Origin: Sedimentibacter sp. zth1
GTDB lineage: Bacteria; Bacillota; Clostridia; Tissierellales; Sedimentibacteraceae
Length of the DNA stretch: 64,000 nt
Assembly: GCF_017352195.1 (NCBI RefSeq)
Contig: NZ_CP071445.1
Span: 1,054,001 to 1,118,000 of the forward strand
Reading direction: 5' to 3'
The position numbers and the translations under genes are program-made. The notes beneath the pieces were generated by a model. The model was not told the DNA's origin. It made no database searches and saw nothing but the letters and a program-made list of their open reading frames with translations. Positions 35,227 to 52,067 of this stretch are shown in pieces (the first letter of the stretch is position 1; each line of letters opens with the position of its first letter).

Positions 35227-36216
35227 TTATTCATCTTTTTTATCTCTTAGCATTAATTTTATAACTGTTTTCTTTACATCTTCATTACATTCAAGTATCG
35301 AATGCATAGCTTCTACTATAGGCATACTAATACTGTTTTGCTTAGCTAATTCATAAGCTGCATATGTTGTAGTTATACCTTCTACAACCATTCCTACCTT
35401 TTTTATGGCTTCACTCTTTGTATAGCCTTGCCCTATCAAATATCCTGCATTTCTATTTCTACTATGCTTACTAGTACATGTAGCAATTAAATCTCCTATA
35501 CCTGATAAACCACCAAATGTTGCTATATCAGCTCCTAGACTTTCTCCTAACCTAGTTATTTCTACAATACCTCTTGTCATAAGTGCAGCTTTTGCATTGT
35601 CACCATACCCAACACCATCTGAAATACCTGCACCTAATGCTATTATATTTTTAAGTGCTCCACCTAATTCAACGCCACGAACATCTTTGTTAGTATATAC
35701 TCTTAAATAAGTAGTCATAAATAAATCTTGTACAATCTTTGCAACCTCTAAATCATCGCAAGCAACTGTAATTGCAGTAGGCAACATCAATACAACCTCC
35801 TCAGCATGAGATGGTCCTGATAAAGCACAGTATTTTATATCTTTACACTCACTAGCCATAATTTCTGAAATTAAACAATGTGTATTCAGTTCTATACCTT
35901 TAGCTGAGTTTATAACTATTTTATTTGCCATATACTCTTTTGGTATTTTTTTTAATACTTCTCTAATCTTTTGAGTAGGTATAGCGTTCAAAATTATTTC
36001 ACTATTTTTTATGACATCATCCAAATCATTTGAAAAATACAAATCATTAGGCAAAATTACATTAGGAAGATATTTCTTATTTATTTTAGTCTTTCTAACG
36101 TCCTCACATTGAGCCTTATCTCTTAACCAGACTTTAACTTCATGTCCATTTTCACACAATACTTTTGCAAGTGCTGTTCCCCAGCTACCTCCACCTACCA
36201 CACCAATTTTTTTCAT
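35227..36216 (-). CDS. gpsA: NAD(P)-dependent glycerol-3-phosphate dehydrogenase
   Basis: Reduces dihydroxyacetone phosphate to sn-glycerol 3-phosphate, the backbone for membrane lipids. Dinucleotide motif GVVGGGSWGTALA at 5-17, SAKGIE near 103, GPSHAEEV near 132, the catalytic-lysine segment GVELGGALKNIIALGAG near 180-196, and NRNAGYLIGQG near 255. Length 329. It lies after plsY, which uses its product, so the two make a small phospholipid-precursor module. Confidence 0.95.
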   Translation of the reverse strand: MKKIGVVGGGSWGTALAKVLCENGHEVKVWLRDKAQCEDVRKTKINKKYLPNVILPNDLYFSNDLDDVIKNSEIILNAIPTQKIREVLKKIPKEYMANKIVINSAKGIELNTHCLISEIMASECKDIKYCALSGPSHAEEVVLMLPTAITVACDDLEVAKIVQDLFMTTYLRVYTNKDVRGVELGGALKNIIALGAGISDGVGYGDNAKAALMTRGIVEITRLGESLGADIATFGGLSGIGDLIATCTSKHSRNRNAGYLIGQGYTKSEAIKKVGMVVEGITTTYAAYELAKQNSISMPIVEAMHSILECNEDVKKTVIKLMLRDKKDE

Positions 36217-48747: not shown

Positions 48748-48776
48748 TTGCAAAGAGTGTCGAAATTTGCTAGAAT
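48748..48776 (+). promoter_or_regulatory. Promoter of the candidate small RNA
   Basis: Plus-strand TTGCAA (48748-48753), 17-nt spacer and TAGAAT (48771-48776), with TGC just before the -10 (extended -10). No protein gene begins downstream on this strand, so the transcript is likely an independent small RNA. Confidence 0.75.
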
Positions 48777-48782
48777 GTACTT

Positions 48783-48876
48783 AGGTTATCCCCCCGATAA
48801 CCTAATATATTCCCAATACCCCTTTTATGCATATTAATGCTTCACAAAAACGGCCCCGAGGTCGTTTTTGTGCTTT
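48783..48876 (+). ncRNA. Candidate C-rich-loop small RNA
   Basis: Predicted transcript of about 94 nt. It starts with a perfect hairpin TTAGGTTATC / GATAACCTAA (48781-48805; the first bases may precede the start) whose loop is five C, or six counting the closing C. A single-stranded AT-rich linker contains TTCCC and ACCCC. It ends with a 13-bp stem CACAAAAACGGCC / GGTCGTTTTTGTG (48843-48872, one G-T pair) followed by CTTTAT. No open frame of note. C-rich loops in Gram-positive small RNAs often bind Shine-Dalgarno sequences. Family unknown to me; the function is inference. Confidence 0.65.
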
Positions 48877-48884
48877 ATAGAACT

Positions 48885-51800
48885 TTATAGTAAACTTTCA
48901 TACTTTATCATCAATTTTTCAACTACCTTATTTTTACTTGAATTAAATATAATATCATCTATTGAATTTATTGGCAGTACATTATTTGATGTACCAGTTA
49001 TAAAAACAGCATCAAAACTATTTAACTCTTGTACAGATATTTTTCTTTTAACTATACCAAAACCTAATTCTTTTGCAATTTCAATCACTTTATCCCTTGT
49101 AACCCCTAGCAATACATCTGAATCTATAGCTGTAATCAGGTTACTATCCTTAACAAAGAAAACATTTGATTTACTTCCCTCGCTTATTGTTTTATCCATA
49201 TTAACAAGTATTGCTTCAAATGCCTTATCCTTTTTTAGCACCTCATCTATTTCTTCCCTATATGTTTTTGTATTTTTTTTAATATTTGGATTTTTTCTTT
49301 CTTTTACTATAGTTACTGTATGTATACCATCTTCATAGTAACTTTTGTCCGGATAAAAGCTTTTTATGAAATACATTAGCAAAATTTGCTTTTCATTAAT
49401 ATCAAAAGTCACCCTAATATTGCAATTTTCAAAATCATTGTTATTTATTAAAAGCTCAATATATTGTTTGAATTGTTCATATTCTATATTATAGGTTATA
49501 TTTGAAAGCTTTATACTATTTATTAATCTACTAAAATGTTCCTTCAAAAATGTTGGTCTTCTATTAATAACTCTAATGACTTCATAAATCCTTGTTGAGT
49601 CGTTTTCTAATATTTCATATGTTTTCGACTTATCTATTATTCTACCATTTAAGACATTCTTCTCTGATACTATGTTTATCATTATATTTTCTCCTTCTTT
49701 CCAAAATTGTTTTAGTGTATTTATTAACTGGATATTATTATATATAACATTATATTCTCTCCAATGGTTTGGAAATAATGATGTGTATGTTCTACTTAAT
49801 AGCCTAGAATCTATCAATAAGGTCATACCTAAATCATCTTCAGTTCTAATAACTCTACCTACTGATTGCAATACTTTATTAAATCCTGGAAATTTATATG
49901 CAAAATCATACCCGCTATCATATTTTTCATTAAAAAAACTTTTTATAATATTTCTTTCGAATGATATTTGTGGAATACCAGTTCCAATAACAATTGTTCC
50001 AATCAATTTATTTAATGGTAAATTTACTCCTTCAGAAAATACTCCTCCAACAACTGTAAACAATATAACGTTATTTTCATTATCAAATTTATTTAATATC
50101 TCATATTGTTCATTTTCCTTAAGTGTTGACATGTTAACAACTAACTCATCATTAAATATACTTTCATAAACTTCCAGTACTTTGCTTAGATAAGAATAAG
50201 ATGGGAAAAAAACTATATAGTTGCCTTTTTTTATACTTACTACAGTATTAATATACTCACATATTTTTTTTATATTTAAATCTCTAATTGAATATTTCAT
50301 AGACAAATTTCCTGTTATCATCAACTTCAGATTATTAATATCAAATGGTGAATTTAAGGATATTAGCTTATCTTCATCTTCATTTCCTCCAAGTATTTTT
50401 CTATAATACTTAAGAGGAGTCAATGTTGCTGAGAAAAAAATTGAAGAATAAGTATTCTTTAATATACTTCTTAAAATTTCAGATGTATTTATTAAAAATA
50501 TTTTAATTTTGAATCCTTTTTCTTTACTAATATAGTAACAATAGTTTTCATCATAAAACTCAGATAATTTAATAAAAAACTTACACTTAAAATATAAATC
50601 CTCAAGTTTTTCATTATTATAACCTTCTTTATCGTTAACCCATTTTTCTAGCTTTGAAACAACCTTCCTACACGCTTTTAAAAAATCATCAGGTTCTGCA
50701 TCTATAATCATATTTTTTTCTTCTGACATCAATTTTTTCAACTTAACAAACTCTGAATTAATATTTCTAATTGCTTTTTTTATATTTTTATCTATAAAAT
50801 CTAAACCTTTAATTTCTTTGTAAATATCATAAATTTCTTCCTTAACTAACTCACAGCTATACATATTTCTTGTTCTATCTTCAAGATTATGTGCCTCATC
50901 TACCAATAAAATATCATTAGAATTATCTAAAAAATCCTCTCTTTGAAATGCAACTCTAGGGTCAAAGTAATAATTATAATCACAAATAACTATATCTGAT
51001 ACATAGCTCAATTCCAAATTTAATTCAAATGGACAAATAGTGTACTTTTTAGCCAATTGCTCTATATATTCTCGATTATATAAGTATTCAGTTTTCAAAG
51101 AATTTATTAGCACTTCGTTTATTTTGTTAAAATATCCCTTTGCATAAGGACAAACTTCTGCATCACATTTAAATGTATCATTACAACATATTTTTTCTTT
51201 TGCTGTTATTATAGTAGCTCTAACTTTAAGTCCATTTTGTTGTAATTTTTTTATGGTTTCTTCAGCTATTTGCTTAGTAGATGATTTAGATGTTAAATAA
51301 TAAATTTTCGAATTACCAACTTTATTTAAAGCTTTAATTGCAGGAAAAAGTACTGATATAGTTTTTCCTATACCTGTAGGCGCTTGAACAAATAACTTCT
51401 TTTTATTTTTAATTGTTTGATATACAGCAATTAACAAATCTCTTTGACCTTCTCTATATTTTCCAAAAGGGAATACTATATTTTCAACTGATATTCTTTT
51501 ATTTATAATGTGCTCTACGTTTAATTTAGCCCAATCAAGATATTTATCAATTAGATTATAGAAAAGACTTTCTAATTGTTTAAATGTGTAATCAGAAGAT
51601 ATAGTTTTAATTTCTTCTGTATCAATATTGCAATATCTTACTTGTACTGTAGCATTTGTAACATTCTCTAAATAGCAATAAAAATATGCATAACATAATG
51701 CCTGTGAAGAATGAGCTAGATTATAATCCTTATCTATTACAGATAAGTCTGTATATGTAGATTTTATTTCATCAATTGTTATCTTATCATCTTCGGCTAT

Positions 51801-52025
51801 AATACCATCTGCTCTACCTTCAATTACAAAATCTATATTACAATACGTAAAACTATGAATAAGATAATATTCTTTATGATAATTCGAATCCATTTGAGAC
51901 TGCAATAGTTTGTGTATTCTAGTACCTTCTAAAGCTCTATCCACACTTGGTTTATTTGTTGTTAAATCACCACTTTTATATACATATGCTACTAATTCTC
52001 TAACTGAAAGCTTTACATTTGCCAT
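48885..52025 (-). CDS. PD-(D/E)XK nuclease / XPD-DinG-like helicase fused in frame to a class IV aminotransferase
   Basis: One frame of 1046 codons holds three domains. Residues 1-175 look like a PD-(D/E)XK nuclease (Asp73 in GRADG, Glu86-Ile-Lys88, QALCY at 108-112). Residues 190-775 are an XPD/DinG-like helicase: Walker A APTGIGKT at 215-222, iron-sulfur cysteines near 280, 287, 292 and 331, DEAH at 376-379. Residues 782-1046 are a complete class IV PLP aminotransferase (EHFSRL, NPNIKKNTK with the likely PLP Lys916, ISEGSKSN, FITGTSNN). A good ribosome site and ATG stand at the junction (49682). The two parts have no known link, so this may be two genes that lost a stop codon. Confidence 0.88.
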   Translation of the reverse strand: MANVKLSVRELVAYVYKSGDLTTNKPSVDRALEGTRIHKLLQSQMDSNYHKEYYLIHSFTYCNIDFVIEGRADGIIAEDDKITIDEIKSTYTDLSVIDKDYNLAHSSQALCYAYFYCYLENVTNATVQVRYCNIDTEEIKTISSDYTFKQLESLFYNLIDKYLDWAKLNVEHIINKRISVENIVFPFGKYREGQRDLLIAVYQTIKNKKKLFVQAPTGIGKTISVLFPAIKALNKVGNSKIYYLTSKSSTKQIAEETIKKLQQNGLKVRATIITAKEKICCNDTFKCDAEVCPYAKGYFNKINEVLINSLKTEYLYNREYIEQLAKKYTICPFELNLELSYVSDIVICDYNYYFDPRVAFQREDFLDNSNDILLVDEAHNLEDRTRNMYSCELVKEEIYDIYKEIKGLDFIDKNIKKAIRNINSEFVKLKKLMSEEKNMIIDAEPDDFLKACRKVVSKLEKWVNDKEGYNNEKLEDLYFKCKFFIKLSEFYDENYCYYISKEKGFKIKIFLINTSEILRSILKNTYSSIFFSATLTPLKYYRKILGGNEDEDKLISLNSPFDINNLKLMITGNLSMKYSIRDLNIKKICEYINTVVSIKKGNYIVFFPSYSYLSKVLEVYESIFNDELVVNMSTLKENEQYEILNKFDNENNVILFTVVGGVFSEGVNLPLNKLIGTIVIGTGIPQISFERNIIKSFFNEKYDSGYDFAYKFPGFNKVLQSVGRVIRTEDDLGMTLLIDSRLLSRTYTSLFPNHWREYNVIYNNIQLINTLKQFWKEGENIMINIVSEKNVLNGRIIDKSKTYEILENDSTRIYEVIRVINRRPTFLKEHFSRLINSIKLSNITYNIEYEQFKQYIELLINNNDFENCNIRVTFDINEKQILLMYFIKSFYPDKSYYEDGIHTVTIVKERKNPNIKKNTKTYREEIDEVLKKDKAFEAILVNMDKTISEGSKSNVFFVKDSNLITAIDSDVLLGVTRDKVIEIAKELGFGIVKRKISVQELNSFDAVFITGTSNNVLPINSIDDIIFNSSKNKVVEKLMIKYESLL
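49680..49700 (-). promoter_or_regulatory. Internal ribosome site and ATG at the helicase-aminotransferase junction
   Basis: On the minus strand, AAAGAAGGAG (49691-49700), 8-nt spacer, then an in-frame ATG (49682-49680) that is codon 782. Starting here gives a 265-residue protein with the length and N-terminus of a free-standing class IV aminotransferase. It could be made alone as well as in the fusion. Confidence 0.75.
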
Positions 52026-52038
52026 ATTATTCTCTCCA

Positions 52039-52067
52039 AATAAAAAACACTATATCTTATAGTGTTT
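52039..52067 (-). terminator. Terminator after the anti-sigma-like ATPase gene
   Basis: The 10-bp stem AAACACTATA / TATAGTGTTT with a 3-nt loop is followed on the minus strand by TTTTATTT. It lies between the ATPase gene and the nuclease-helicase start. Confidence 0.8.

Follow-up and report, generated by a model that had tools for sequence, protein, structure and literature searches.

A nuclease-helicase and a class IV transaminase share one open reading frame in Sedimentibacter sp. zth1, with a ribosome site retained at the seam

Introduction

The closest described systems to the locus studied here are of three kinds. EndoDinG proteins, which combine a PD-(D/E)XK nuclease with an XPD-like helicase, have endonuclease and 5'-3' helicase activity, and the text of the review devoted to them contains no mention of an aminotransferase or transaminase (PMC11981726). 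DtolTA of Desulfobacula toluolica (PDB 9j0u, 9j0v) is the sole monomeric fold-type IV transaminase described within the literature searched, and its N-terminus sits at the face used for dimers in other transaminases (PMC11673721). The third kind comprises translationally coupled overlapping gene pairs (PMC10666635, PMC12548453). Here we analysed one frame of Sedimentibacter sp. zth1 within a window of 64,000 nucleotides (contig NZ_CP071445.1, positions 1,054,001 to 1,118,000) and in related genomes. The coordinates of its features within the window are collected in Table 1.

Table 1. Features of the helicase-transaminase locus, in window positions.
Feature	Position	Strand	Details
Fused open reading frame, EndoDinG-type nuclease-helicase + class IV transaminase (predicted)	48885..52025	-	1046 codons, ATG start
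Nuclease-helicase part, residues 1-781	49683..52025	-	Nuclease, Walker A, FeS and DEAH residues; PDB match
Class IV transaminase part, residues 782-1046 (M782-L1046), 265 aa	48885..49682	-	Schiff-base lysine K916 (= K135 of free form)
Seam: Shine-Dalgarno AAAGAAGGAG, 8-nt spacer AAAATATA, in-frame ATG (codon 782, 49682-49680)	49680..49700	-	Sequence, duplex energy
Region ahead of nuclease-helicase start, ribosome site GGAGAG	52026..52041	-	Sequence
Hairpin directly 3' of transaminase stop	48843..48872	.	Likely terminator, operon and convergent small RNA
Candidate C-rich small RNA, convergent with helicase-transaminase operon	48783-48876	+	Promoter 48748-48776

Results

The two parts of the fused frame

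The sequence-only reading had described a complete helicase and a complete transaminase in a single frame, and both the list of open reading frames, which has one frame of 1046 codons here, and the Pfam matches bear this out. The frame is present as one copy in the genome (a single contig of 3.13 Mb). A scan of genome contigs with the fusion protein found a single distant helicase. In a full-length structural model both halves fold confidently (mean pLDDT 88, pTM 0.70, with the blocks at the seam at 79-80), and a short linker follows the final helicase helix.

The first part fits membership of the EndoDinG subgroup, as judged by its sequence. Pfam identified DEAD_2, HBB and Helicase_C_2 domains, with the best stretches between residues 201 and 757, and a weak PDDEXK_1 match (18.6 bits against a cut-off of 22). 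The closest solved chain by sequence is PDB 9kqh (E 5.5e-152, over residues 3-756). The N-terminal PD-(D/E)XK site of EndoDinG, with a histidine in helix 2, a glutamate, an aspartate and a glutamate with a lysine, was found as H38, E52, D73, E86 and K88, and its four-cysteine FeS domain within an XPD-like helicase core as C280, C287, C292 and C331; none of these nine residues varies among the 28 helicase rows compared. The helicase motifs, too, are invariant in these rows; Walker A includes K221 and the DEAH motif lies at 376-379. Endonuclease and 5'-3' helicase activities are properties predicted for this protein. PADLOC matched residues 176-764 to type IV CRISPR DinG models with 414 bits, a match that we took as shared helicase ancestry rather than a role in type IV CRISPR because the same helicase occurs in most genomes of the order.

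The second part matches Pfam Aminotran_4 at residues 813-1022 (E = 9e-41), and DtolTA is the closest of its structurally characterised relatives, both by sequence (131 bits versus 79 for the next) and by structural comparison (Z 32.6, TM 0.90). The PLP-site residues of DtolTA (K137, R53, E170, T198, T234) and those of its O-pocket (Y34, K91, Y106, R144) all have counterparts, K91 being replaced by arginine, and the catalytic residues are invariant across a 41-row transaminase alignment. We therefore regard the second part as a predicted DtolTA-like transaminase, with activity and oligomeric state likewise predicted, and its group is probably monomeric by similarity to DtolTA. In the structural alignment residue 1 of the transaminase aligns with residue 2 of DtolTA. 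A dimeric enzyme would be expected to resist a 780-residue N-terminal partner, whereas a monomer need not. In the model, region 2 begins a helix (H139-151), as opposed to the loop described for DtolTA (PMC11673721).

More familiar assignments of the transaminase were considered and rejected. Scores against the NCBIfam equivalogs for branched-chain and D-amino-acid transaminases were far below the cut-offs (IlvE 101 of 246, PRK06606 104 of 279, D-AAT 75 of 277). The score for PabC, the aminodeoxychorismate lyase, was 78 bits against a cut-off of 308, and this role was excluded because no chorismate-binding enzyme, and thus no PabB partner, was found in this genome. True PabC genes in the relatives are distant and adjoin PabB.

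Arrangement in relatives

A readable junction between adjacent helicase and transaminase genes was available in 20 of the 27 genomes sampled from the family, which represent three genera. In 18 of those 20 the genes are separate: the helicase stop lies anywhere from 23 nt inside the transaminase gene to 41 nt upstream of its ATG, and that ATG is closely preceded by a ribosome site, often within the helicase gene. Relatives with two genes and a clear stop, set beforehand by the sequence-only reading as one half of its refutation, are thus the prevailing arrangement. Most have the helicase and the transaminase in different phases, and in two (G020 and G002) the genes share a phase and only one TGA separates them. 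The remaining two junctions, in this genome (G000) and in G026, are each one frame. No further helicase-transaminase fusion was present among the matches listed for 249 genomes of the order, and the fused architecture is not conserved across a clade, as the two fused genomes (2 of 20) are not sisters. In the helicase tree, G026 lies amid genomes with separate genes and is 81% identical to G019, whereas G000 branches outside genus g3 altogether; the transaminase tree shows broadly the same picture. Since G000 and G026 are so far apart in the tree, their fusions most likely represent two independent stop losses, although the second weighs less because the G026 assembly is a draft (completeness 87%, contamination 7%).

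The adjacency extends to G045 and G062, members of another family of the order, where the two genes also overlap; beyond these two families the transaminase adjoins unrelated genes. In four genomes (G001, G003, G014 and G028) the transaminase is found at the usual locus, flanked by a small ATPase-like gene and by nifS-thiI, but with no helicase beside it, and therefore the pairing is not obligatory. No helicase match was found in three near-relatives of family f1 (G003, G014 and G004), the last of which also had no transaminase.

These comparisons bear on whether the fusion is the working form of a selected bifunctional enzyme, in which the transaminase is tethered to a DNA-processing machine and the two act together. 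The pair has been fused twice, apparently independently, its adjacency is conserved in two families and the catalytic residues are intact in both halves. We nevertheless consider such an enzyme unlikely, as 18 of the 20 relatives manage without the fusion, no helicase was detected in two genomes (G003 and G014) that keep the transaminase at this locus, and beyond the two families the transaminase keeps different company. In addition, the linkers of the two fusions are unlike in length and sequence, and the ribosome site that both retain would be superfluous to a pure fusion.

Long helicase frames (1230 aa) in family f4 were also examined as possible fusions and rejected. The helicase ends at its own stop in G059 and G108, and in G079 (L074 2277-5975) one stop closes the helicase and an RNA methyltransferase gene in the same frame starts directly after it. 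Frames of 1230 aa like that of G079 occur in several f4 genomes and offer a parallel setting for a future fusion.

Sequencing error as an unlikely source of the fusion

A miscounted A in AAAA, or a similar assembly or sequencing error, could have joined two genes that are in reality separate. The spacer is A-rich, and one wrong base would be enough given that most relatives have the genes in another phase. Frameshifts were sought by comparing 231 proteins of relatives with the window region and with genome samples totalling approximately 800 kb, and none was seen. The comparison covered 115 matched ORFs (41,773 non-redundant residues, ~125 kb of coding sequence), over which the helicase-transaminase frame was the only fused pair, and six in-frame stops were present; it bounds the rate of indels without proving this particular base. 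A survey of ABC domains found about three apparently cut copies among roughly 115 well-matched domains, and at least one of these resembles a pseudogene in having several stops. An indel error is unlikely because the ~125 kb comparison was free of frameshifts, and G026, a separate assembly, is equally fused.

The ribosome site at the seam

A ribosome site, an 8-nt spacer and an in-frame ATG with 265 codons from there to the stop had been reported at the seam, and all were confirmed in the sequence. The duplex energy of the site is -9.3 kcal/mol, which was equalled or bettered at 3 of 261 in-frame internal ATGs in the large frames of the window, the seam ATG included, and which ranks in approximately the strongest tenth of gene starts. 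The combination of site and ATG is beyond chance. Both fused seams, in G000 and in G026, have a site of -9.3 kcal/mol and both retain the ATG. The two other strong internal start-like sites in the window, at 35787 and 45251, lie within ordinary coding sequence.

To judge from these features of the sequence, a free transaminase is probably produced alongside the joined protein. Ribosomes starting at the helicase start (52025) would read into the transaminase and yield the 1046-residue fusion, while the retained ribosome site and ATG (49682) would start a free transaminase of 265 residues. Were the fusion the sole product, the site would be a relic and the free transaminase absent. In-frame internal sites are often silent and GAAGGAGAA doubles as linker coding sequence, but the site is among the strongest of the window, is equal to those in genomes where such a site must work and has been kept in both fusions, making a fusion-only locus quite improbable.

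A candidate small RNA convergent with the operon

Immediately 3' of the transaminase gene, on the opposite strand, lies a candidate small RNA. It has a conserved promoter, in which TTGC is followed by an extended -10, and comprises a GGTTATCCCCCCGATAACC hairpin whose loop is C6-C8, ATATTCCCAATACCCCTTTT as an invariant stretch, and a terminator hairpin in which compensatory changes (covariation) are seen. Its folding z is -7.3, and searching Rfam with E values as high as 1 gave no match. Among 110 genomes sampled from the order, it was found in 16 of the 17 that belong to this family, in 7 of 8 of family f3 and in no others. C-rich single strands of this sort often pair with ribosome sites in Firmicutes. 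One relative (G001) has three copies of the core (L172, L187 and L189), two of them away from the transaminase locus. In another (G009), two cores (L011 4707 and 4934) flank a run of N between the transaminase and nifS, which could reflect either tandem copying or a duplication introduced during assembly.

Discussion

Our analyses make it reasonably probable that an ancestral translationally coupled pair lost its helicase stop, such that the locus now makes a fusion as well as a free transaminase. In the ancestral state an EndoDinG gene would have been tightly packed against, and coupled to, a following DtolTA-like transaminase gene; coupling is suggested by the arrangement of the sequences in the relatives. 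The simplest route to loss of the stop would be a net phase change of 1 nt within the short spacer: because overlapping pairs have no stop before the transaminase ATG, a net indel of 1 nt in the stretch from the last helicase codons to that ATG is enough to join the two genes. Such a phase change is visible when G019 and G026 are compared, and we infer a 1-nt indel as the origin of the fusion from sequence comparison of this sort. The single change that the sequence-only reading gave as an example, TAA to GAA, is not needed, since most relatives are out of phase and the gain or loss of a net 1 nt in the spacer is no less likely.

A C-terminus that was variable beforehand would let the helicase accommodate a tail, and the probable monomeric state of its group would let the transaminase accommodate a partner at its N-terminus; a special joint function appears to be absent. 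Of the three readings originally offered, stop loss, here in a coupled pair, is favoured by the relatives and the dual product is its likely consequence. The combination of a helicase with a PLP enzyme, noted at the outset as unfamiliar, is indeed new to the literature searched. It is very unlikely that two lineages independently fused EndoDinG to a monomeric D-amino-acid-type transaminase for joint work at DNA; if true, this would be the first PLP enzyme built into a DNA-repair helicase.

The locus provides a natural example of a packed gene pair becoming one protein, with overlapping, in-phase with one stop, and fused states all found in one family. It also represents a caution, as an unfamiliar two-domain protein need not imply a functional partnership. 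In addition, the many DtolTA-like members in this bacterial family are suited to testing whether fold-IV transaminases work as monomers.

Compared with the described systems, the helicase part is like EndoDinG in its N-terminal nuclease residues (H, E, D, E-x-K), four FeS cysteines and helicase motifs, and unlike it in that a transaminase continues in the same frame (PMC11981726). The transaminase part has Y34, R53, Y106, K137, R144, E170, T198, R199 and T234 in common with DtolTA, as well as an O-pocket loop of equal length; it differs in its overall sequence (30-34% identity), in the change of K91 to R, in a shorter C-terminal helix and in being encoded as the tail of a helicase. Although this genome is without the stop of translationally coupled overlapping pairs, its relatives resemble such pairs both in their stop-start overlaps of -4 and -1 nt and in having ribosome sites that lie inside the upstream gene (PMC10666635, PMC12548453).
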